From a bacterium (lineage in GTDB: Bacteria > CSSED10-310 > JAJRTK01), in the NCBI GenBank assembly GCA_024278345.1, contig JAJRTK010000333.1, forward strand, positions 1 to 18,663: a stretch of DNA of 18,663 nucleotides, given 5' to 3'. The position numbers and the translations under genes are program-made. Below, piece by piece: positions 2,195-16,206 of the stretch. The notes beneath the pieces are model-generated. The model did not search any database. It was not told the origin of the DNA and saw nothing but the letters and a program-made list of their open reading frames with translations. How positions within the stretch are numbered: position 1 is the stretch's first letter; each line of letters opens with the position of its first letter.

Positions 2195-5100
2195 GTGAGA
2201 GACTGGCGCATGCCGAAACGGTTGCTTGTTGTTTTCGCCCTGCTGTTGGCCACTGCATGGGTGGCCATTCCAGCGCCGTCCACGGCGGAAATCCGCGTCG
2301 CTCCTACGACGTTTCTCACCGATAGTGACGGAATTACGGAGTTTGAACTGTACAAGAACGGCATCTATTGGTGGCAGAGGATGTGGGAAGAGACGACTCC
2401 GACCCGAGTCGTCACCATCCACCCGGGGACGATTCGGCTTCGCGGAACCATGGGCGGCTCGCAAAAGAGCGTGATGAGATCGGATCAGATCCTCACGCCT
2501 ATCAGCAATTCCACGGAAAATCATGGCAACGTGGCGCACGATGGGCAGTATGTCTACTTTTTCAGCCAGGGTCTGCTCCACCGGAAATCGCTGAACCTGG
2601 CCGAGGGGACATCGAGTCAACCCATGCCCGGGAACATCAGCCTGGCTACAGGGGAAAACAGCGCCTATATCGAGCTTTCAGGAGGGCAGCTCTATTGGGC
2701 GAACCACACCGTTAACCCCATTACGCTCCAGATGACGAATTACGTCTACAGTATGCCCACCAACGGGAATCAGTCCTCCCTGCTCTTCAGCAGCCCGGGG
2801 AGCGGGAGGATCGCGAAGATCCAAAGGGCGACCTACCGCCAGGCCGATGGCACGGATGTGGAAGCCTTGTTTCTTCTCACAGCCGATGGACGGCTCTTGA
2901 AGATACCGCTGAACCCCTCTGGCAGTGAACAGCTTTTGGATATGGACGTCTGGGATTTCGCCATCCACCATCGCGCCTGGATAGGAGGAGCCGCCACCGA
3001 CATTTACGCCGTCACCAGCCTGTTTACTGAAGGAAGCTTGACTCCGCCGTCCCCTGGAGAGTTGGTGCGAATCGATGCGGAAACGAACCTGGCGACGCGG
3101 TTGCGGACCGCCTCGGGTACCAAGCAATTCCTGGCGGTGACCACGGACAGCGACTCTGGTGCGACCAGCCCCGACAAGAATGTCTACGTCGTCGAGGCTG
3201 CCGTGAATTGCGGCGAACTAGTAGGATGCACGATAGGGGGTCCCTACGAAGTCTCCCGTCACAAGATTACGGTTCCGGTGGACTCGGGAGCCTGGGATAC
3301 ATTCGTCATCCAGATTTCGGGGATCGGTTCCATCAGGAGTGATGACCAAACTTTCTACTTTGTGGAGTATGGCGGTTCCTACGATTCGATCATGATGCTT
3401 CCCACGGATGCTGCCCCCGTCGAACTGGATTTCCAGGCCGATTACATGGAGGTGACTCAGGGAATCCAGAATATGGCTGGCGCTGTCCCTTTGGTGGGGG
3501 GGAAGGAGACCTATGTCCGAGGCTGGGGGTCTATCACCAACACGACGGGAGACAATGGTTGGCGCCCGTACGCGGTTATCCACGGCTACCGGAACGGGCA
3601 GGAACTCGCTGATTCGCCCATCGATTCTCGTAACTTTCCCTATTTGAGCGACACCAGCTCCTTGGCATACGATCGCCCCAGTTTGAATCATTCCTACTAT
3701 TTTCGGCTTCCGGAAACCTGGACTCAAGCCGGAAACCTGACCTTGGCCTTTGAGATCTCGCCATCTCCGGCGGAAACCGGGACTCTCCCCAACACGGTGA
3801 CCAAAGATGTGACATTTCAGAGTGTTCCGCGGCCCTGTATCGTCGGGATGCCTATCGCGGCGCAAGCGACTCCGTTTTTCAACCAAGTGGGCATAGCAGA
3901 CTGGCGGTTCGCCGACATTCTGGATCGATTTCGCACTCTCTTTCCCATCGGTCAATTCAGTTTCCACTACATCGACCAGCCGATCTACAAAACTTCCATC
4001 GACTTGGAAGTCCTTTGTCTCCCCGATGTTCCTATCATCTGGCCACCCTTTTGTGCCCCCTTCCCGGTGATCTCATATTCCCAGTTCGATATGAGTCTCA
4101 AGGATGAATGGTCGGAGGCATTGGGCAATGTGGCTCAAATGGCGGTCCTCAGCAATCTTTCCGGCTATCAGCCCGGCAATTGCGATCCGACGACTACCCA
4201 TTGGGTGGCGATGCTCCACCCGGTCGTGCTCAACGGCGCCTGGGCCGGCCTTGGGTATAGGCCGGGAAACTCGTCCATCGTGACCATGACGACGAGTCAG
4301 CCCAGCAAGAGCTACACCTACCCTCGCGGCGGCCAGATTCTGGCCCATGAATTGGCTCATAACCACGGGCGCAAGCATATCAATTGCGGCAGCGGTATAC
4401 TGGGGCCGTTCGACAATCCGCCGTGGGCGTCATGCAACCTGGGTCCGAACGATACACAGGAGTATTACGGCTTCGACGGATTCTCCTTTCCGCCCTCGAT
4501 CATCGCGCCGAATCCTGCTGCCGTGGCCGATCTCATGACCTATTTCCAACCCAAGTGGACCAGCAGCTTCACGTGGAATGCTATCTTGGGGACGACGCTT
4601 CCCGTTCGGCGGGCGGTGTGGCTGGAATCGGGAGAAGGCCGTCGTGCCAGTGAACTGCTCACGGTGAGCGGGACGATCTGGCCGCAGCAAGCCACGGTCC
4701 AAGCCAATCCTTTCTACCGGATCCCCGCCACACCGCTCACCCGGGCTCGGGCGGCACGATACGCGCCCACGGGTGTTGAAAGCCGCACGGTGTCGTACGA
4801 CATCCGTCTTCTGGACGCCCGGGGCCTGGAACTGTATCGGGAAGCGCTGGTCCTGAGCGCCGGTGAAGAGCCTCTGGAGACTGCGGCAGCCTTCTCCCGA
4901 ACCCTGACTTTCGATCCCAATACCGCCTACATCGAAATCGTTGATGCCAACAATACGACCCTCTTGCAACGGGCGGTCACTTCCAGCGCTCCCCTGCTCA
5001 CTCTCCAAGGAGTAACCGTGAACGACACGGACCAGACCGTGGAGCTTCGCTGGATCTCCTACGATCCAGACAACGATGTAGCCCCCGTTTTCACGATCCA

Positions 5101-6544
5101 GTACAGTACGGATGATGGCCTGACCTGGCAGCCCGTGGCTCTGAATTATGAGTTGTACAAGATCGTTCTGAATGCTTCGATGTTGCCAGGAAGCGACACC
5201 GCACGTCTCCAAGTCCTAGCCACCGACGGAGTCAACACGACCATCGCCATGAGCCAGCAGTTCAGCTTGCCCAAGCATGCACCCCGGCCTCTGATCGGAG
5301 GGATCACCGAAGGGGAACGGTTGGATTTCGCCATCGTTCCCACGCTTTCCGGATATGGTCTCGACGCCGAGGATGGTACGGTGGACGGGACAGGATTGAG
5401 CTGGGCCGTCACTGGCCCGGTCGCCCTGTCGGGGACTGGAAGAAGCTTCCCCCTGCCCGACCTGCTTCCCGGTGAGTACACGGCGGTCCTCACCGCCATC
5501 GACAGTGATGGGCAGTCGGGGATGGCCACACGTCATTTCGAGGTTCTACCGGTGGCGGTTCCCGATACGGCGGTTCCGGAACTCGATGGCCGTTGCACCG
5601 ATACCGCCTATACCGATGCCACCCTGGTCCGGCTTCTCCTGTCCAGTGGCCGGTTCGTCCGAGGGTGGATGCTTCATGCCAACGGAGCCCTTTACCTCTG
5701 CTTCTCCGATCTGCCCTTCGCCTCCGCCGGAGGCAGTCCCCTCGTGGTGGGAATCCGAGTGGATGGCGACAAAAGCGGCGACGGGGTGGCCCAAGCCGGA
5801 GATATGGGCTTCTTCGTCGATGAAGAAGGAATTCCCTACCAACTGGTGGGCGACGGAGCGGGCGCCATGCCCATCAGCTCGACGCCTGCGGTGGGATTCG
5901 AGGCGGTGGTGGAATGGGATACGGCGAGCTGGGACTCTCCGCCCCAGGATTGGAGCGCCGAAATGGAGATTTCCGAATCCCTCGTCAATGGTTGGGATCA
6001 CGCCGCCGGGATTATGTTCGACTACGCCAAGCCTTTGGATTCGGCTGGCACCACCTGGCCAGCCGGGGCCGGGGAGTCGGCTCCCTCCACCTGGGCTTCG
6101 GCCTGGTTTGGGACTCCACCGGCACCGGAGAATCGTCCTCCCGTAGCCAATCCCGGCATTGACGAAACTCTTCTGGTTCCGCAAGATCGGACGATCTATC
6201 TGGATGGCGGAAGCAGCTATGATCCCGATGGCAATCCTCTCAGCTACACCTGGATCCAGACGGCGGGCCCAACGGTGACTCTGCTCAATCCCGATTCATC
6301 GACGCCGAGCTTCGTGGCGTCTCCCGTGAGCGAGCCCACGGTTCTGGAGTTTGAGCTCATCGTGAGCGATGGGACGTTGAGTAGTGTCGCCGCCCGCATC
6401 AGGGTGACGTTGCTTCCGGCGTCGAGAGTGCCGGAAACGACGATGATTCCAGCATGGACGGGAACTCTGGGGACGATCTTGCTCCTCGGCCTGCTGGCCT
6501 TCTTCATGGCATCCCGCCGGCGTCGGTACACTCCTCGGGTTTGA
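2195..6544 (+). CDS. Large secreted metzincin-type zinc metalloprotease with beta-sandwich modules and C-terminal sorting-like helix
   Basis: The 1449-residue product starts at GTG, with GGAGG 7 bases upstream; an ATG at 2210 is a weaker alternative. Residues about 8-30 form a signal peptide (LLVVFALLLATAWVAIP). Residues about 35-410 look like a beta-propeller-like region of repeated short strands. The peptidase core carries HELAHNHGRKH at 718-728, matching HExxHxxGxxH (zinc ligands H718, H722, H728; catalytic E719). A likely Met-turn (DLMTYFQPKW, M781) follows 53 residues later. Both fit metzincins. Then come FN3/PKD-like modules (about 930-1120), a CBM9/DOMON-like domain (about 1125-1305) and a PKD-like domain (1313-1408, DGGSSYDPDGN). 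The end is IPAWTGTLG, a hydrophobic helix (about 1422-1441) and RRRR, resembling IPTL/PEP-CTERM sorting tails, though the match to IPTL is partial. Expected to act outside the cell or on its surface; the substrate is unknown. Confidence 0.85.
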   Translation: MRDWRMPKRLLVVFALLLATAWVAIPAPSTAEIRVAPTTFLTDSDGITEFELYKNGIYWWQRMWEETTPTRVVTIHPGTIRLRGTMGGSQKSVMRSDQILTPISNSTENHGNVAHDGQYVYFFSQGLLHRKSLNLAEGTSSQPMPGNISLATGENSAYIELSGGQLYWANHTVNPITLQMTNYVYSMPTNGNQSSLLFSSPGSGRIAKIQRATYRQADGTDVEALFLLTADGRLLKIPLNPSGSEQLLDMDVWDFAIHHRAWIGGAATDIYAVTSLFTEGSLTPPSPGELVRIDAETNLATRLRTASGTKQFLAVTTDSDSGATSPDKNVYVVEAAVNCGELVGCTIGGPYEVSRHKITVPVDSGAWDTFVIQISGIGSIRSDDQTFYFVEYGGSYDSIMMLPTDAAPVELDFQADYMEVTQGIQNMAGAVPLVGGKETYVRGWGSITNTTGDNGWRPYAVIHGYRNGQELADSPIDSRNFPYLSDTSSLAYDRPSLNHSYYFRLPETWTQAGNLTLAFEISPSPAETGTLPNTVTKDVTFQSVPRPCIVGMPIAAQATPFFNQVGIADWRFADILDRFRTLFPIGQFSFHYIDQPIYKTSIDLEVLCLPDVPIIWPPFCAPFPVISYSQFDMSLKDEWSEALGNVAQMAVLSNLSGYQPGNCDPTTTHWVAMLHPVVLNGAWAGLGYRPGNSSIVTMTTSQPSKSYTYPRGGQILAHELAHNHGRKHINCGSGILGPFDNPPWASCNLGPNDTQEYYGFDGFSFPPSIIAPNPAAVADLMTYFQPKWTSSFTWNAILGTTLPVRRAVWLESGEGRRASELLTVSGTIWPQQATVQANPFYRIPATPLTRARAARYAPTGVESRTVSYDIRLLDARGLELYREALVLSAGEEPLETAAAFSRTLTFDPNTAYIEIVDANNTTLLQRAVTSSAPLLTLQGVTVNDTDQTVELRWISYDPDNDVAPVFTIQYSTDDGLTWQPVALNYELYKIVLNASMLPGSDTARLQVLATDGVNTTIAMSQQFSLPKHAPRPLIGGITEGERLDFAIVPTLSGYGLDAEDGTVDGTGLSWAVTGPVALSGTGRSFPLPDLLPGEYTAVLTAIDSDGQSGMATRHFEVLPVAVPDTAVPELDGRCTDTAYTDATLVRLLLSSGRFVRGWMLHANGALYLCFSDLPFASAGGSPLVVGIRVDGDKSGDGVAQAGDMGFFVDEEGIPYQLVGDGAGAMPISSTPAVGFEAVVEWDTASWDSPPQDWSAEMEISESLVNGWDHAAGIMFDYAKPLDSAGTTWPAGAGESAPSTWASAWFGTPPAPENRPPVANPGIDETLLVPQDRTIYLDGGSSYDPDGNPLSYTWIQTAGPTVTLLNPDSSTPSFVASPVSEPTVLEFELIVSDGTLSSVAARIRVTLLPASRVPETTMIPAWTGTLGTILLLGLLAFFMASRRRRYTPRV

Positions 6545-8233: not shown

Positions 8234-8884
8234 ATGATTCTCGTGCTGGAACCAGATGCCCCACAGGAGCTTGTAGAAAGCCTGTGCCGTGACGTCGAAA
8301 GTTTAGGGGTGACCTGCGAAGTGTCTCGGGGGCCCCGGGAAGTCATCATCGCCCTTCCGCCCACCGTCGATAGCGTCGAGCTCCAGAAGCTCATGGAAGA
8401 AAGGCGTGAGGTGGATGTCATCCCGATCCTTACGGAGCCGGAATACGTGAGGCAGCGGGGGAGGCGGAAGTTCATGCGGAGTTTGTTGGCGGGGCTTGGC
8501 CTATTGAGCGGAGTCGCAGCGGGGATTCCCGTTGTCGGCTTTCTTTTGCCGCCTCGGAAGCAGCTTTCGCAGCCGAATCGGGTTCTGGGGGGGCGTGTGT
8601 GGCAGCTTTCCCGGAACGAGACGAAGCTGGTGCGATTGCGCGGCAAGCCGGTGTTGGTCATCAACGATGAGTTCGGAAACTACCATGCGGTCAGCGCGCT
8701 TTGCACCCACATGAACGTGTGCCAGTTGGAATGGGACCCGAGTCGCCGGCTTCTGGCCTGTCCCTGTCACGACGGTGCCTTTGATGTTCATGGCAACGTG
8801 GTTGCCGGGCCACCTCCGACACCGCTCCAGACGTTCGAGGTCGAGGTTCAAGGCGACGAGATCTACATCAGCCGGGAGGGTTGA
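8234..8884 (+). CDS. Rieske [2Fe-2S] protein with N-terminal DAHP-synthase-type FXD domain
   Basis: First gene of the operon; 216 residues with a weak GGAAAGAG ribosome site. Residues 1-72 (MILVLEPDAPQELVESL..., SRG, ...VIPIL) match the beta-alpha-beta pattern of the ferredoxin-like regulatory domain of DAHP synthase (compare MIVVLKPGSTEED... of the Thermotoga enzyme, from memory). A Tat-like motif RRKFMR (77-82) and a hydrophobic anchor (83-105) follow, as in uncleaved Tat-dependent Rieske proteins. The C-terminal Rieske fold has box I CTHMNVC (C157, H159, C163) and box II CPCH (C176, C178, H179), plus GPPPTPL. C157, H159, C176 and H179 should bind the cluster. Box I has one residue more than the usual CTHxxC, shifting the disulfide cysteine. 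Topology puts the FXD domain in the cytoplasm and the cluster outside. It should pass electrons from quinol to the cytochromes downstream. The 4-base gap to cytochrome b supports one complex. Confidence 0.93.
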   Translation: MILVLEPDAPQELVESLCRDVESLGVTCEVSRGPREVIIALPPTVDSVELQKLMEERREVDVIPILTEPEYVRQRGRRKFMRSLLAGLGLLSGVAAGIPVVGFLLPPRKQLSQPNRVLGGRVWQLSRNETKLVRLRGKPVLVINDEFGNYHAVSALCTHMNVCQLEWDPSRRLLACPCHDGAFDVHGNVVAGPPPTPLQTFEVEVQGDEIYISREG

Positions 8885-8888
8885 GTTC

Positions 8889-9536
8889 ATGCGCTCCAAG
8901 AGACACGGAGTCAGGCGGACCTTGTGGAGGGCGATGCAGCAGCCGGTATCGCCGCGACAGGCTGGCATGATGAGGTTTGTCTGGCTGTTGATATTGCTTT
9001 TTGCGGTTCAGATCGTCACGGGGATTCTGTTGTCGCTTTACTATCAGCCGTCGCCGGAATCCGCGTATGAAAGCGTTGTCTTCATTTTGCGCGATGTGTC
9101 GTTTGGCTGGCTTCTTCGCGGGGTCCATTATTGGTCTGCTCAACTGATGATCGCCCTTGGCATGTTGCAGGTGATCCGGGCGTTTTACGCCGGTATGTAC
9201 AAGGGGCCAGGCCGCATCCACTGGTATATCGGGATGCTCTTGTTTCTGTCGATCCTTGCCTTTGCGCTCACCGGTTCCCTGCTTGCGTGGGATCAGACGG
9301 CTTACTGGGGGGCTGTAGGAGCCATGGAATGGGTCGAAGCGATTCCAGTTGTTGGCACGATGATGGCGCTCGTTTTGCGCGGGGGGCACCAAGTTGGGGC
9401 GGCGACTTTGGGGCGATTCTATTCGATTCATATTCTGCTTTTGCCCTGGATCACCTTCTATCTGCTGCTGGCCCATCTGTGGTTGCAGTCGCGGATCCGT
9501 GCCGAGCAAGTTCCGATGACACCCAAGGAGAAATAG
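8889..9536 (+). CDS. Cytochrome b (b6-like, four-helix) with a missing heme bH ligand
   Basis: The ATG at 8889 follows GGGAGGG by 8 bases and gives 215 residues, the length of cytochrome b6; upstream in-frame extension overlaps the Rieske gene and was rejected. Four membrane helices are visible: A (about 27-52), B (about 70-100), C (about 110-137) and D (about 177-200). Family marks include QIVTG, YYQPSP, SFGWLLRGVHYWSA, LAWDQTAYWG, VVGTMMALVLRGG and FYSIH. Helix B has H80 but Q94 (codon CAG at 9168) where b6 and mitochondrial cytochrome b have the second His, 14 residues on. Helix D has H181 and H196 with the b6-type spacing of 15. So bL (H80/H181) looks intact and bH (Q94/H196) does not. 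The Cys that binds heme cn in b6f aligns with Arg here. It forms the quinol-oxidising core with the neighbouring genes. Confidence 0.93.
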   Translation: MRSKRHGVRRTLWRAMQQPVSPRQAGMMRFVWLLILLFAVQIVTGILLSLYYQPSPESAYESVVFILRDVSFGWLLRGVHYWSAQLMIALGMLQVIRAFYAGMYKGPGRIHWYIGMLLFLSILAFALTGSLLAWDQTAYWGAVGAMEWVEAIPVVGTMMALVLRGGHQVGAATLGRFYSIHILLLPWITFYLLLAHLWLQSRIRAEQVPMTPKEK

Positions 9537-9538
9537 CC

Positions 9539-10123
9539 ATGATCGTCGTTCTCAGGCGAGGGATTACCGACGCTCAAATCGAGGAGATCCTGGGCGAGTT
9601 TCCAAAACTTGGGATTGAGGGGCGGGTTATACGGGGCGCGAGCAAGCCGGTAATCCACATTCTCTCGGGGACTTTTTTAGCCGTGCGACCGCTGCTGCGC
9701 ATGGATCGAGTGGAGGCGATTGTCCGCACCGATGGCCCCAGAATCCGAAAAGTCGGGCGGCCCTTTTTCCCCCACCACTTCATCAACTGGTGCGTCTCGA
9801 CATTATTGGCTTTGGCCGGGTTGATCGTGCTGGCCGGGTTTCTTCCGCCGGGGTTGGGTTCTCCGGTGGACGTAACGCAGGCACCGGGTGTTTTTTCGTC
9901 ACCCTGGTATGCGCGGGCCTTTGAAAAGCTGATTTCCCTTGCTCCTCCGGCGTACGCAAAGGTTGCTCCAGGAGCGACATTCCTGATGATCGTCGTCATT
10001 TTTTTCCTGCCTCTTTGGGACCGAGGCGAAGACCGCCGCCTGATCAGGCGCTTGCCGGTACTTTTGCTTGGCACCGCTGTTCTGGCGGGGTTCATCTACC
10101 TGTCCATCGTTGGGCTCTTCTGA
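9539..10123 (+). CDS. Cytochrome b6f subunit IV-like protein with N-terminal FXD domain
   Basis: Start at 9539, two bases after the cytochrome b stop, with AAGGAG upstream; 194 residues. Residues 1-78 (MIVVLRRGITDAQIEEIL, VIRG, VEAIVR, ...VGRPFFP) align almost without gaps to the DAHP synthase FXD domain, even in its closing VxREFxP-like segment. After that come three membrane helices: E (about 82-105), F (about 139-160) and G (about 170-192). This matches the C-terminal half of cytochrome b / subunit IV, with FFPHHFINW and LPPGLGSPVD typical of the start of helix E. The Qo motif PEWY reads S121-P122-W123-Y124, lacking the Glu that takes quinol protons. The N-terminus of subunit IV faces the cytoplasm, the same side as the Rieske FXD domain, so the two could pair. 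The identity of the helical part is firm in context. Confidence 0.88.
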   Translation: MIVVLRRGITDAQIEEILGEFPKLGIEGRVIRGASKPVIHILSGTFLAVRPLLRMDRVEAIVRTDGPRIRKVGRPFFPHHFINWCVSTLLALAGLIVLAGFLPPGLGSPVDVTQAPGVFSSPWYARAFEKLISLAPPAYAKVAPGATFLMIVVIFFLPLWDRGEDRRLIRRLPVLLLGTAVLAGFIYLSIVGLF

Positions 10124-10159
10124 GCCTGGGGCCACGAAATGCACGAGGAACCATCCACA

Positions 10160-11386
10160 ATGGAAGCGCGACTAGAAGACTGGAAGAAGAAGCTGCTGGT
10201 TCTACTGGCTCTGGCGTTGTGTCTCTCCGTCTCGCCGGCTTTTTCGTCACCGGTGAGCCCGCGAGGCTGTGCCGTTTGCCATGGCAAGGAAGCCAAACAG
10301 CTTGACCGGAGCATTCACACCGGTGTGCCCCTTAGTTGCACGAGCTGCCACGAAGGCAACGATGGGCCGGTGAACAAGGAAGAAGCCCATGGGGATACCC
10401 TCCGGATCTTAGACACGGGCCGGAAGGTCGTCGAATTGTGTGGAAACTGTCACTCCGACTTGGAGAAGATGCGTTTCTTCGGTGTCCGCACGGATCAACT
10501 TGCTCTTTACAAGACATCCCTCCACGGGAAACGCTTGTTCGAAAACGACGATGCCCACACGGCCACTTGCGTGGATTGCCATGGCGCGCACGACATCTTG
10601 CCGCCATCCGATCCTCGGGCTCCAACTCATCTATTCAACCAGGCGAAGACTTGTGGCCGTTGCCACTCCGACCCGGAGCTCATGAAACCCTATGGTCTCC
10701 GCACCGATATCGTCGAGCTCTATAAGGATTCAGTTCATGGGAAACGCCTCCAGACCAACCAGAATACGGCAAACCCAAGTTGCTCCAGTTGCCACGGTTC
10801 TCACGGTGCCGCTCCGCCGCGTGTGGACAAGGTTGCCACCGTTTGTGGCCATTGCCATTCGGTGATCCGCGGGTCATTCGAAGAGAGTCCCCATCTCAAG
10901 GCGGTGGAGTCCGGTGCCATGGAAGAATGTGTCAGTTGCCATGGCGATCACGGTGTCCAAGAACCTGGGCCCAGCATGTTTCTGGGTGATGAGGAGGGGC
11001 ACTGTGGTTTCTGCCACGACGGCGATGAGGGCGAAGCGACGGCCAAAGCCCTCCACCGTGGAATCGAGGAGGTACAAGCCGATCTGGAAATGACTGAGGA
11101 GGATCTCCGGGCTGCGGCTCGAGAGAGCATCTTCATCGAAGACGAAGAGGGCTACTTGGATGAAGTCAACGCCCTCATCGTCCGCTCCAGGGCCAAGACG
11201 CACACCGTGACTCCGGAAATTCTACAAGAATCATTTAACCGCACGAAGGCGATGCTCCGGGAGACCCGCAGCAGCCTAGAGCTCAAGACCCGATGGCTCC
11301 GGGATCGCAAGATCTTTACGGCGGTCTTCTTCCTGGTAGTCCTCGTCTTCACGGCCTGTTTGTTGGCCTATCAGCGCACGAGGTAG
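10160..11386 (+). CDS. Membrane-anchored nonaheme cytochrome c (408 aa)
   Basis: Start at 10160 chosen for GAGGA 10 bases upstream; an in-frame ATG at 10139 is possible and adds 7 residues. A signal segment (LLVLLALALCLSVSPAF) leads into nine CxxCH heme sites: CAVCH (C37), CTSCH, CGNCH, CVDCH, CGRCH, CSSCH, CGHCH, CVSCH and CGFCH (C282). A two-heme module of about 65 residues is repeated, marked by CGxCHSDxExM, GxRTD, LYKxSxHGKRL and CxxCHGxH; a third copy is degenerate. Residues about 292-375 are charged and helical, probably coiled coil, and 384-403 form a C-terminal membrane anchor ending in QRTR. The heme domain should lie in the periplasm and take electrons from the Rieske protein in place of cytochrome c1 or f. 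It ends 5 bases before the next cytochrome gene. Confidence 0.92.
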   Translation: MEARLEDWKKKLLVLLALALCLSVSPAFSSPVSPRGCAVCHGKEAKQLDRSIHTGVPLSCTSCHEGNDGPVNKEEAHGDTLRILDTGRKVVELCGNCHSDLEKMRFFGVRTDQLALYKTSLHGKRLFENDDAHTATCVDCHGAHDILPPSDPRAPTHLFNQAKTCGRCHSDPELMKPYGLRTDIVELYKDSVHGKRLQTNQNTANPSCSSCHGSHGAAPPRVDKVATVCGHCHSVIRGSFEESPHLKAVESGAMEECVSCHGDHGVQEPGPSMFLGDEEGHCGFCHDGDEGEATAKALHRGIEEVQADLEMTEEDLRAAARESIFIEDEEGYLDEVNALIVRSRAKTHTVTPEILQESFNRTKAMLRETRSSLELKTRWLRDRKIFTAVFFLVVLVFTACLLAYQRTR

Positions 11387-11391
11387 GAACC

Positions 11392-13446
11392 ATGAGACAG
11401 ACCAGACGCCGGTCGCTTTTCCGGATCCGTGCCGTTCAACTGCTTCAGACCTCCCTTTTGGTTTTGGTTTTTGGCGTTGCCCTCATGGCAGCAGGGATGT
11501 TCGCGGCCATTGAATATACGGCCCAGCCGGATTTTTGCCGAACTTGCCACAACATGGAGCCCTTTTATCAGTCCTGGAAGAAGTCCAGCCACTCCAAGGT
11601 TCCCTGTATCGAATGTCACTACGAGCCAGGTGCCGTAGAAACGCTCGACGGCAAGTTCAAGGCACTTTCGCAGCTCGCCAAATACGCCACCCGCACCCAG
11701 GGAACCAAGCCCTGGGCCGAAGTCAGTGACGATAGTTGCATGCGCTCTGGCTGCCACTACACCCGCCTTCTTGAAGGCCCCATCCGGTTTGGCAAGGTCA
11801 AATACGATCACGGACCCCACCTCTTGGAGAACACAAAGGGGCACCGGCTCCAATGTACCACCTGCCACTCTCAGGTTCTCCAAATCGAGCATTTCAGCGT
11901 TTCGAAGAATCTCTGTTTCACCTGCCATTTCATGGACGAGTCCAAGAGTGGCTTCCGGAATGCCAGCGACTGCCTCAAGTGCCATGTGCCACCGAAGGAA
12001 GCGATTCCGGTTGACGGCAAGCCCTTCCTACATTCGGATTACACGAACCGAGGAGTCCAGTGCCGCGAATGTCACGATCCCGCGTCGAAGGGCGCCGGTC
12101 AGGTTCGCCGCGAGCGTTGTCCCTCTTGCCACGGCGAGGTCGAATACCTGGAGCGGTACGAGGAGACTGTTTTTCTCCACCAGAGCCACGTCACCGACCA
12201 CAAGGTCGAATGTTTCGAGTGCCACGACGATATCCAACACGGCCTCTTGCCACTGGAGTCCCCGGTGAAAAGCTCCGAGGGCTGCGGTTCATGCCACGTG
12301 ACGCCCCACGATGCCAACCAGATGCTCTATGCCGGGACCGGAGCCGTTGGAGTGGAAGACCGGCCTAGCCGTATGTTCCAGACCCGCATCGTCTGTCAGG
12401 CCTGCCACACGGGCAGAAGCCAGCCCAAGGCCGGAATGAAGAAGAAGCATGGCACGGAAGGAAGCTCCCATATTCCCACTTCCGTGGTGGCTGCCGCGGG
12501 GGAAGTGGATTGCTTCCATTGCCATGACGTGAAATTCGAGGGCATGCTGCCCCGGTGGCAAGGGAGTGTAGAAGGTGTTTTGGCGGAACTCTTGCCCGCC
12601 CTTGAAGCGCTTGGGCAGAAGCTCCCGGATTCGGAGGACCACCCGGCGCGGCAGCTCTATCTCGAGGCTAAACAGAATGTCGATCTGGTCGTGCTGGATG
12701 GCTCCAAGGGTGCTCATAATGTCTCTTACGCTTTGGACGCTCTTCGCGTCAGCGCGGAGCGAATCGCCGAGGCATCGAAGCTTCTCGATCCAGAGGCACC
12801 CGCCGTGCCTGTGGGCAAGTTTCCCCTTTCTTTCAAAAGCGATTGCGCTTCCGGATGCCATCTGGGAGTGGAAGAAACCAAGAAAGTAGAGTTCAGGAAT
12901 GGTGAGGTCTTCCCCCATCGCCGACACCTGGTGGAGGGAAAACTGGACTGCGCCAGTTGCCATAGCACCGAAGAGCACGGACAACCCGCCTTCCCAAGGA
13001 GCCAATGTGGGAATTGCCACCACCAGCCAGCGGAAGGTTCGGGCCAAGAGATCCAGTGTGCCACCTGCCACGCCACCCAAGCGGGGATGATTGCGGGCGA
13101 GCTTCAGGATCTGAAGGGCGAACCGTCGATCATGGCGGAGTCGGTTTCGTGTGATGGTTGCCATGGTGAGGCGCCGGAAATCGTGAGGCCCACGGGAGAG
13201 ACTTGCATCGATTGCCACGAGGATGGCTACGAAGAGTTTCTGGCGGAATGGCGCTCCAATACGGCGGAACTCCAGGAGCGTTTGCGAAAGAAGCTTTTCG
13301 AGGCAGAAGACGACGCTCTTCCAGCGGATCTCATCCAGCGGGCAAAGCAGGTTCTCCAATGGACGGAGCAAGACGGAAGCAAGGGAGTCCACAACGCGGA
13401 TTTCGTCGAAGAAATGCTCACCGAAGCGCTCCGGAAGCTCAAATAG
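11392..13446 (+). CDS. NapC/NirT-anchored multiheme cytochrome c, about 18 heme sites (684 aa)
   Basis: ATG at 11392 with AGGA upstream; the frame extends further upstream inside the previous gene but no sensible start lies there. The N-terminus has one membrane helix (LLQTSLLVLVFGVALMAAGM) and the NapC/NirT signature FCRTCHNMEPFYQSW (C49) then CIECH. I count 16 CxxCH sites, one CX4CH (C116-C121-H122, with MRSG between the cysteines) and one CX3CH (C485-C489-H490, with ASG between), 18 in total. Two helical modules carry DGSKGxHN (436-443 and 661-668), like the HN-containing helices of NrfA-type cytochromes, each after a long helix. It is the last gene of the operon. NapC-type anchors take electrons from quinol or neighbouring b subunits; here it probably extends the heme wire in the periplasm. 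No catalytic nitrite-reductase CxxCK site is present. Confidence 0.92.
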   Translation: MRQTRRRSLFRIRAVQLLQTSLLVLVFGVALMAAGMFAAIEYTAQPDFCRTCHNMEPFYQSWKKSSHSKVPCIECHYEPGAVETLDGKFKALSQLAKYATRTQGTKPWAEVSDDSCMRSGCHYTRLLEGPIRFGKVKYDHGPHLLENTKGHRLQCTTCHSQVLQIEHFSVSKNLCFTCHFMDESKSGFRNASDCLKCHVPPKEAIPVDGKPFLHSDYTNRGVQCRECHDPASKGAGQVRRERCPSCHGEVEYLERYEETVFLHQSHVTDHKVECFECHDDIQHGLLPLESPVKSSEGCGSCHVTPHDANQMLYAGTGAVGVEDRPSRMFQTRIVCQACHTGRSQPKAGMKKKHGTEGSSHIPTSVVAAAGEVDCFHCHDVKFEGMLPRWQGSVEGVLAELLPALEALGQKLPDSEDHPARQLYLEAKQNVDLVVLDGSKGAHNVSYALDALRVSAERIAEASKLLDPEAPAVPVGKFPLSFKSDCASGCHLGVEETKKVEFRNGEVFPHRRHLVEGKLDCASCHSTEEHGQPAFPRSQCGNCHHQPAEGSGQEIQCATCHATQAGMIAGELQDLKGEPSIMAESVSCDGCHGEAPEIVRPTGETCIDCHEDGYEEFLAEWRSNTAELQERLRKKLFEAEDDALPADLIQRAKQVLQWTEQDGSKGVHNADFVEEMLTEALRKLK

Positions 13447-14352: not shown

Positions 14353-16206
14353 TCATTCGAATCGGATTTCCAGCTTGTAGGTTCCTTCCTCGAAGCGGCT
14401 GCTAACTTTGAGGCCGGTCTTGTGGAGAAGCATCATCATCGATTTGTTCGATGAACGCACCCTTGCCGCGAAACCCGCCAACCCTCGAGCACTGGCGATT
14501 GCGCCTATTCGTTTCACCAGGCGCGTTCCCAGGCCCCGGCCTCGCCAATCGTCTCGGACGACAATGGCGATGTCGGCCATTCGGGTCGCTCGGATCACGT
14601 CATAGCGGGCCACGCCCAAGATTTCCTCTGCCTCGCCATCGGCCTGGATCGCCACCAGCCCGAGATTCTGCTCGAAGTCCAAGGCCGCCAGGTTGCGCAT
14701 TTCCTCCTCGCAGGCATGCTCCTGGGTGTAGGCCAGGAACCGCCTGAACGTACGCGGGTCCGCAAGGCGATAGAAAAAGTCCTGTAGAAGTTCGTGATCG
14801 CTCAGTTTAACGGGGCGGATCAAAATCCTTTCGCCATCGTCCAAACACTCTGTTCGGGTTTCCTGCCAAGGCACCACCGCCCTGGGAACAAGCTGTTCTG
14901 GGAAGACGTAACGGCGTTTCTTCGCCGACGCCAGGAGCTCAGCTCTGTAATCGGGATGGGCGATCTCGATGAGCGCCATCGCCCGCTGGCGGATGTTTTT
15001 GCCCCAGAGATCCGCCACTCCATATTCCGTGACGACAAAATGCACGTCACCGCGGCTCGTGACGATCCCCGCCCCCTCCTCCAGAACCGGCTGAATTCGG
15101 CTGATGCTACCCCTTTTCGCCGTGGATCGAAACGCAAGGATCGGCTTGCCCCCCTTGCTCCGAGCAGCGCCACGGATAAAGTCCACCTGCCCACCGATTC
15201 CAGAGAAAAAGCGCCCCCCGAGCGTGTCGGAGGCCACCTGTCCCGTCAAATCAATGGCCAGCGCGGAATTCACGGCAATCATCCGGTCGTTTCGGGCTAT
15301 GATGAAAGGGTCGTTCGTAAAATCGCTGGGCCGCATTTCCACGCAAGGGTTGTCGTGGACCCATTCATACAGGCGGCGCGTACCCATGACGAACGACGTC
15401 ACCAGCTTGCCTGGAAGCAAGCTCTTTTGCGCGCCGGTGATCACCCCGGTCTCCACAAGCTTCATGACGCCATCGGACAACATCTCGGTGTGGACGCCCA
15501 GATCGTGGTGGTTTGCAAGCTCCGAGACCACGGCGTCAGGGATCTTTCCGATTCCAGTCTGCAACGTTGCCCCGTTGGGGATCAGGCTTGCCACGTGGCG
15601 CCCGATTTCCCGGCTCACCCCATCCAGCTCGTCGGGGATGAGCTCTGGAAGAGGCTCGTCCACGGGCACCAGAAGATCGATCTTGTCCACATGCAGAAAC
15701 GAGTTGCCCAACGTTCGTGGCATGTTGGGGTTGACCTCCGCAAGGATCAGGTCGGCCGATTCCACCGCCGCCCGCACGATATCCACCGAAACCCCAAGAC
15801 TGACGTAGCCGTGCCGATCCGGCGGACTCACCTGGATCATCGCAACATCCAGCCGAACTCTACGCGACCGGATCAAGAGAGGCAGCTCCGACAAAAAGAC
15901 CGGCATAAAATCAGCCCGGCCTTCGTGAACAGCTTTCCTGACGTTTGGCCCGATGAAAAAGGCCATGTGCCGAAAATGGCGCTCCATTCCCGCCCCCACG
16001 TAGGGCGCCGGCCCCATGGTCAACAAATGGACGATCTCGTTGTCCACAAACCTCGAACAATTCGCCACAAGGGCTTCCACCAGCCGCCGAGGCTCCGCGA
16101 CTCCCGAGCCAATCAGAATCCGCCGCGCGGGGTCGATCCTCCGCACCGCCTGATCCGCCGTCGTCAGCTTTGACGAAAATCTTGCCTGCCATTCCAATCC
16201 ATCCAC
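14353..16206 (-). CDS. Acetyl-CoA hydrolase/transferase fused to a C-terminal GNAT domain (617 aa)
   Basis: GTG start at 16206 with GAGGA about 10 bases upstream. Residues 1-440 are a class I CoA-transferase of the acetyl-CoA hydrolase / 4-hydroxybutyrate CoA-transferase type: MIQVSPPDRHGYVSLG, LQTGIGKIPDAV, HTEMLSDG with the likely catalytic E241, and GIGGQVDF (336-343). Residues about 455-617 form a GNAT domain with the acetyl-CoA-binding motif VRDDWRGRGLGTRL near 550-560. The order transferase-GNAT is known from a family annotated as bifunctional acetyl-CoA hydrolase/transferase and GNAT. The first part would move CoA between acyl donors and acids; the second may acetylate a small molecule or protein, or act as a regulatory part. 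The gene sits between the MBL hydrolase and the enoyl-CoA hydratase genes, suggesting acyl-CoA metabolism. Confidence 0.9.
   Translation of the reverse strand: MDGLEWQARFSSKLTTADQAVRRIDPARRILIGSGVAEPRRLVEALVANCSRFVDNEIVHLLTMGPAPYVGAGMERHFRHMAFFIGPNVRKAVHEGRADFMPVFLSELPLLIRSRRVRLDVAMIQVSPPDRHGYVSLGVSVDIVRAAVESADLILAEVNPNMPRTLGNSFLHVDKIDLLVPVDEPLPELIPDELDGVSREIGRHVASLIPNGATLQTGIGKIPDAVVSELANHHDLGVHTEMLSDGVMKLVETGVITGAQKSLLPGKLVTSFVMGTRRLYEWVHDNPCVEMRPSDFTNDPFIIARNDRMIAVNSALAIDLTGQVASDTLGGRFFSGIGGQVDFIRGAARSKGGKPILAFRSTAKRGSISRIQPVLEEGAGIVTSRGDVHFVVTEYGVADLWGKNIRQRAMALIEIAHPDYRAELLASAKKRRYVFPEQLVPRAVVPWQETRTECLDDGERILIRPVKLSDHELLQDFFYRLADPRTFRRFLAYTQEHACEEEMRNLAALDFEQNLGLVAIQADGEAEEILGVARYDVIRATRMADIAIVVRDDWRGRGLGTRLVKRIGAIASARGLAGFAARVRSSNKSMMMLLHKTGLKVSSRFEEGTYKLEIRFE

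Follow-up and report, generated by a model that had tools for sequence, protein, structure and literature searches.

Every Rieske/cytochrome b complex is accepted to have at its core two bis-His b hemes placed across the membrane, the arrangement on which the Q cycle is based. In Geobacter, the Ext cluster combines a Rieske protein (ExtO) and a cytochrome b (ExtP) with ExtQ and the multiheme proteins ExtM, ExtN, and ExtS (PMC5877670). Heme bH has been knocked out by engineering in R. capsulatus through H212N, which replaces the helix-D bH ligand His by Asn, and no natural Met or Lys ligands have been reported for membrane b hemes (PMC4807273). H198N in the same species, a comparable loss at heme bL, kept a high-spin heme (PMC8138165). 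In the Qo site, Y147 and E295 take part in the proton network, and PEWY motif variants are known that contain no protonable residue (PMC10583091). A search of the open-access literature, with subscription papers outside its scope, returned no earlier report of a natural Rieske/cytochrome b complex without bH.

We analyzed an 18,663-bp stretch of bacterial DNA (here called the window), which is one whole contig of genome G000 (6.1 Mb, 550 contigs, 88% complete). Positions 8234 to 13446 carry five forward-strand genes that probably encode a Rieske/cytochrome b6-type quinol dehydrogenase in which heme bH is lost and heme bL is kept, with electron exit on the P side and no Q cycle. Elsewhere in the window, an acetyl-CoA hydrolase/transferase fused to a GNAT acetyltransferase domain is encoded on the reverse strand (14353 to 16206), and the forward strand encodes a large exported protein (2195 to 6544) with a PKD domain, a metalloprotease-like motif (HELAHNHGRKH), and a C-terminal transmembrane (TM) segment that leads into a basic tail.

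The second gene of the cluster (8889 to 9536, forward strand) encodes a b6-type cytochrome b of 215 amino acids, which belongs to PF00033 (E value, 5.8e-43; 147.4 bits against a cut-off of 27.2). A phmmer alignment to the cytochrome b6 of 1vf5 runs over 165 residues without a gap (E value, 5.8e-41) and equates H80, Q94, H181, and H196 with b6 H86, H100, H187, and H202, respectively, confirming the residues given in the initial annotation. The protein model, predicted from 45 sequences (the window and the loci), has a pLDDT of 94 and superimposes on the b6 chain 2e74_A with a Z score of 23.1, displaying the four-helix heme bundle. Given this model confidence and similarity to b6 chains, Q94 sits in an ordinary helix B. 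Following the established b6/bc1 assignments, we take H80 and H181 to be the heme bL ligands and positions 94 and 196 to be those of heme bH. The bL ligands are thus His80 in helix B (9126 to 9128) and His181 in helix D (9429 to 9431), both invariant in the alignment, and the bH position in helix B is occupied by Gln94 (CAG, 9168 to 9170). In helix D, His196 (9474 to 9476) remains as a bH ligand; it is Asn, Ser, Glu, or Trp in 13 of 15 relatives. A His elsewhere in helix B could have taken over the site, yet the helix contains none beyond H80. The heme cn Cys is absent as well, as the initial annotation had pointed out: Arg29 of the window corresponds to b6 position 35, the heme cn site, and no member of the family described below has Cys in this column, which is occupied by Cys in 26 of 63 control cytochromes b.

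These controls comprise 63 non-redundant ordinary cytochromes b, including the nearest ordinary matches of the window protein. The family itself has 16 members, namely, the window (G000), 14 clusters from one class of Planctomycetota, and G021, which belongs to another phylum. The order Rieske, b6, subunit-IV-like protein, nine-heme cytochrome c, and NapC/NrfH-type multiheme cytochrome c is kept in all 16, as far as the contigs reach. A first search recovered G021, which has a matching cluster and Gln at the Q94 site, and the planctomycete metagenome-assembled genomes L034 and L035, with the complete gene order and Asn at position 196. Of 154 genomes of the one planctomycete class searched with a profile of the third subunit, 14 carry the cluster; among 386 genomes sampled across the domain, the same subunit gave no strong match in any other genome. 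A more distant cluster from a phylum-wide sample, L057, has His at both 94 and 196 and lies outside the family. A DNA pattern for the helix-B Gln, checked on known members, matched G000, G021, and, once, G678; the last proved to be a chance match and not a cytochrome b. In G021, cytochrome b and the third subunit form one fused protein, and genes for a multiheme c, a 4Fe-4S protein, and an NrfD lie immediately upstream of the Rieske gene (L037, 2013 to 4765).

Eight positions pack on or ligate the two hemes (G31, G45, H80, H94, G115, G129, H181, and H196), and all eight are invariant in the 63 controls. At position 94, these controls, which include the three further cytochromes b of G000 with their ordinary heme ligands, have His throughout. 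Across the family, the bL set (G45, H80, G129, and H181, together with R77) is likewise invariant (16/16), so that the bL pair, which the initial annotation had described as intact, is bis-His in every member. The bH ligand pair, in contrast, is broken in all 16. Position 94 is Gln in nine members and His in seven, and position 196 is Asn in nine, His in three, Trp in two, Ser in one, and Glu in one. The resulting 94/196 pairs are Gln/His (the window, G021, and L056), His/Asn (L034, L035, L052, L053, L117, and L118), His/Ser (L055), Gln/Asn (L121, L122, and L123), Gln/Trp (L054 and L119), and Gln/Glu (L120). Both bH ligands are therefore missing in six members. In addition, the helix-A Gly31 that packs on heme bH is replaced in 7 of the 16, by Val in the window (8979 to 8981), and G115 is replaced in two; the window retains G115 and H196.

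The occurrence of Gln94 in independent genomes (9 of the 16 members) excludes a sequencing error or chance as its origin. Conservation of Gln among homologues, put forward initially as a check on the anomaly, holds only in part, since seven members have His94, yet the bH pair is broken in these as well. Close homologues with His at this position would have pointed to a sequencing or strain change, but all 15 syntenic relatives have a broken pair. Because H198N of R. capsulatus keeps a high-spin heme, loss of a single ligand is no proof of heme loss, and the six members without any bH ligand form the stronger evidence: they indicate that the family functions with no protein-ligated bH. We consider it probable that the family as a whole has no working bH. 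For the window's own protein, the same conclusion is likely but held slightly less firmly.

The cytochrome b gene is preceded by that of the Rieske iron-sulfur subunit (8234 to 8884, forward strand; Pfam Rieske, 5.6e-14), which bears an N-terminal DAHP-synthase ferredoxin-like domain (DAHP_snth_FXD, 6.6e-7). Its cluster motifs (CTHMNVC...CPCH) provide the two Cys and two His ligands, with one extra residue in box I. In four relatives (L054, L056, L121, and L123), the box-I His is replaced, by Leu in one, Tyr in two, and Phe in one, and the cluster may have altered ligands there. The third subunit (9539 to 10123, forward strand) consists of a ferredoxin-like domain (PF18152) and three TM helices equivalent to subunit IV of b6f, as judged from the model and profile. 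Foldseek matched only its ferredoxin-like domain (to the DAHP synthase domain), and its TM part was assigned by profile matches to subunit IV and the C-terminal part of cytochrome b at 2e-6. The Rieske and subunit-IV-like proteins thus both start with a DAHP-synthase ferredoxin-like domain (8234 to 8350 and 9539 to 9740), predicted to lie on the N side.

The Qo site on the third subunit is modified, too. In the motif table and the profile alignment, SPWY (9899 to 9910, forward strand) takes the place of PEWY and the catalytic Glu is absent. This Glu is missing in all 16 members and present in L057, an outgroup whose bH pair is intact. In L055, the third subunit (3835 to 4248) lacks the ef-loop segment bearing PEWY, either through a real deletion or through an assembly error. 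Loss of the PEWY Glu alone is not evidence of a dead site, given the known PEWY variants that lack a protonable residue. Where R. capsulatus has Tyr147, the window has Ser130 (9276 to 9278) and the 15 relatives have Glu or Asp, and it is possible that in 15 of the 16 members the Qo carboxylate has been relocated from the PEWY loop to this position.

Downstream, two multiheme cytochromes complete the cluster. The first is a c-type cytochrome with a C-terminal TM anchor (10139 to 11386, forward strand; Pfam and motif count), with nine CXXCH motifs in each of the 16 members. The second (11392 to 13446, forward strand) has 16 CXXCH motifs plus two variants and an N-terminal NapC/NrfH-type membrane domain (PF03264, 1.7e-9; TIGR03153, 8.7e-13); its first heme motif is CXXCHXM, found in every family member whose gene was readable. 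An MtrC/OmcA-like outer-membrane multiheme cytochrome is encoded upstream of the cluster in L035 (2 to 2434), which suggests an extracellular acceptor in some hosts. In the 88% complete assembly of G000, neither MtrB/PioB nor MtrC-type families were found; both are weak negatives, the MtrC search having been run without a positive control.

A family tree was built from four of the five proteins, leaving out the cytochrome b trait columns. It requires two changes at position 94 and five at position 196. The simplest order would be a basal change of His94 to Gln, at least two losses of H196, and a subsequent return of His94 where H196 was already gone; the base of the tree is uncertain owing to the long L018 and L057 branches. 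A simple convergence among unrelated losses was rejected, as the tree favors a single change of H94 to Q, followed by losses of H196 and by one reversion to His94.

This order has a bearing on the window itself, in which H196 and G115 are still present, so that a five-coordinate heme could be accommodated. If Gln94 came first and H196 was lost later, the window would display an early state, and the heme would have been lost completely in the derived planctomycete members only, a reading also in line with the high-spin heme left behind by the bL His-to-Asn change in R. capsulatus. Gln94 is retained over deep branches, and so it has some role; this retention, like the His94 of seven relatives, speaks against the reading of a family with bL as its only b heme. 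However, Gln94 is also kept where position 196 is Asn, Glu, or Trp and it has no second ligand to pair with, which argues both against its being a heme ligand and against heme ligation as the cause of its retention. Moreover, Val31 replaces the bH-packing Gly in the window, and the window lacks the PEWY Glu, like the members without bH. Restriction of heme loss to the derived members is rated unlikely. Of the two forms of abnormal bH proposed initially, Gln/His ligation is made unlikely by the same pattern, and a five-coordinate heme is possible in the window, with its Q94/H196 pair.

The changes in the cluster could also be read as decay, with losses accumulating in a pseudogene-like relic: the box-I His of the Rieske subunit is gone in four members, and L055 lacks a segment of subunit 3. 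This reading is contradicted by the selection and conservation data and is highly improbable. Cytochrome b has a dN/dS of about 0.06 between L117 and L118 (dN, 0.011; dS, 0.19) and of about 0.14 between L034 and L035 (dN, 0.139; dS, 1.0), and the gene is under purifying selection. Furthermore, the reading frames are full in all 16 genomes, the bL pocket and heme counts are invariant, and the gene order is kept across phyla. Ligation of bH by another residue, such as His111, where helix C begins on the N side, is equally improbable: H111 occurs in the window and in the possible sister pair L054/L119 and is not conserved in the rest of the family, and, judging from the b6 fold, it would sit a turn outward from G115, closer to the propionates of the heme than to its iron.

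Whereas the residue changes, the order of the genes, the pattern of conservation, and purifying selection are observed, we infer the absence of bH, the path of the electrons, and the loss of the Q cycle as follows. Quinol would be oxidized at the modified Qo site on the P side, and the first electron would pass through the Rieske cluster to the nine-heme cytochrome. The second electron would move to heme bL and then return to the P side, where its likeliest acceptor would be the first heme of the NapC/NrfH-type subunit; for a single b heme to suffice, a P-side acceptor would have to lie close to bL, a demand that counts against this reading. With no bH and, for lack of a Cys at position 29, no heme cn, the complex would have no redox center on the N side, leaving an N-side quinone site out of the electrons' reach by the known path. 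The retained bL, the Rieske subunit, and the P-side multiheme partners together suggest that both quinol electrons leave on the P side and, with no Q cycle involved, go to acceptors in the periplasm and, for some hosts, outside the cell. The earlier proposal, according to which the complex has either a single b heme or an unusual bH and its Q cycle is altered or missing, is thus supported, at the level of sequence, by the broken bH pair in all 16 members. For the fullest version of this proposal, we see the case as evenly balanced: a natural lineage with bL only, in which quinol oxidation is uncoupled from the Q cycle and both electrons run on the P side into some 25 c hemes, with the Qo carboxylate moved in 15 of the 16 members and the Rieske His lost in some.

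A lineage that spans several species and is maintained by selection although it lacks the bH site would demonstrate that a plain quinol dehydrogenase can be made of the complex. Natural counterparts to engineered bH knock-outs would thereby become available for short-circuit and bifurcation studies. In addition, the lineage points to a hitherto undescribed connection between the quinone pool and multiheme electron transfer, possibly of the extracellular kind, among uncultured Planctomycetota and in another phylum that has been sampled sparsely.

Compared with known systems, the complex shares with b6f and bc1 the cytochrome b6 fold, the bL ligands, a Rieske subunit, and a subunit-IV-like third subunit. 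It differs from them in its broken bH pair, the lost PEWY Glu, and the missing heme cn Cys, as well as in having two large multiheme cytochromes c instead of a cytochrome f or c1 and ferredoxin-like domains on two subunits. Since two defining features fail, the bis-His bH site and PEWY, it is not filed as a bc1/b6f complex, although fold, gene content, and bL make it a relative. Among described clusters, Geobacter Ext comes closest and likewise combines a Rieske protein, a short cytochrome b, a small membrane subunit, and several multiheme cytochromes (PMC5877670). ExtP (NF040969) is the best NCBIfam match of the window cytochrome b, at 177.3 bits, which is below the cut-off of 290. ExtP was compared by this model score only, and all control cytochromes b, unlike that of the window, keep the four His. 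Six relatives carry the same Asn as R. capsulatus H212N as their only ligand loss. In contrast to that engineered variant, the state found here is fixed under purifying selection, and the window has lost the helix-B ligand instead. Finally, the last subunit resembles the NrfH/NapC quinol dehydrogenases in its membrane domain and CXXCHXM first heme and differs from them in its 16 to 17 hemes and in being encoded within a Rieske/cytochrome b operon.
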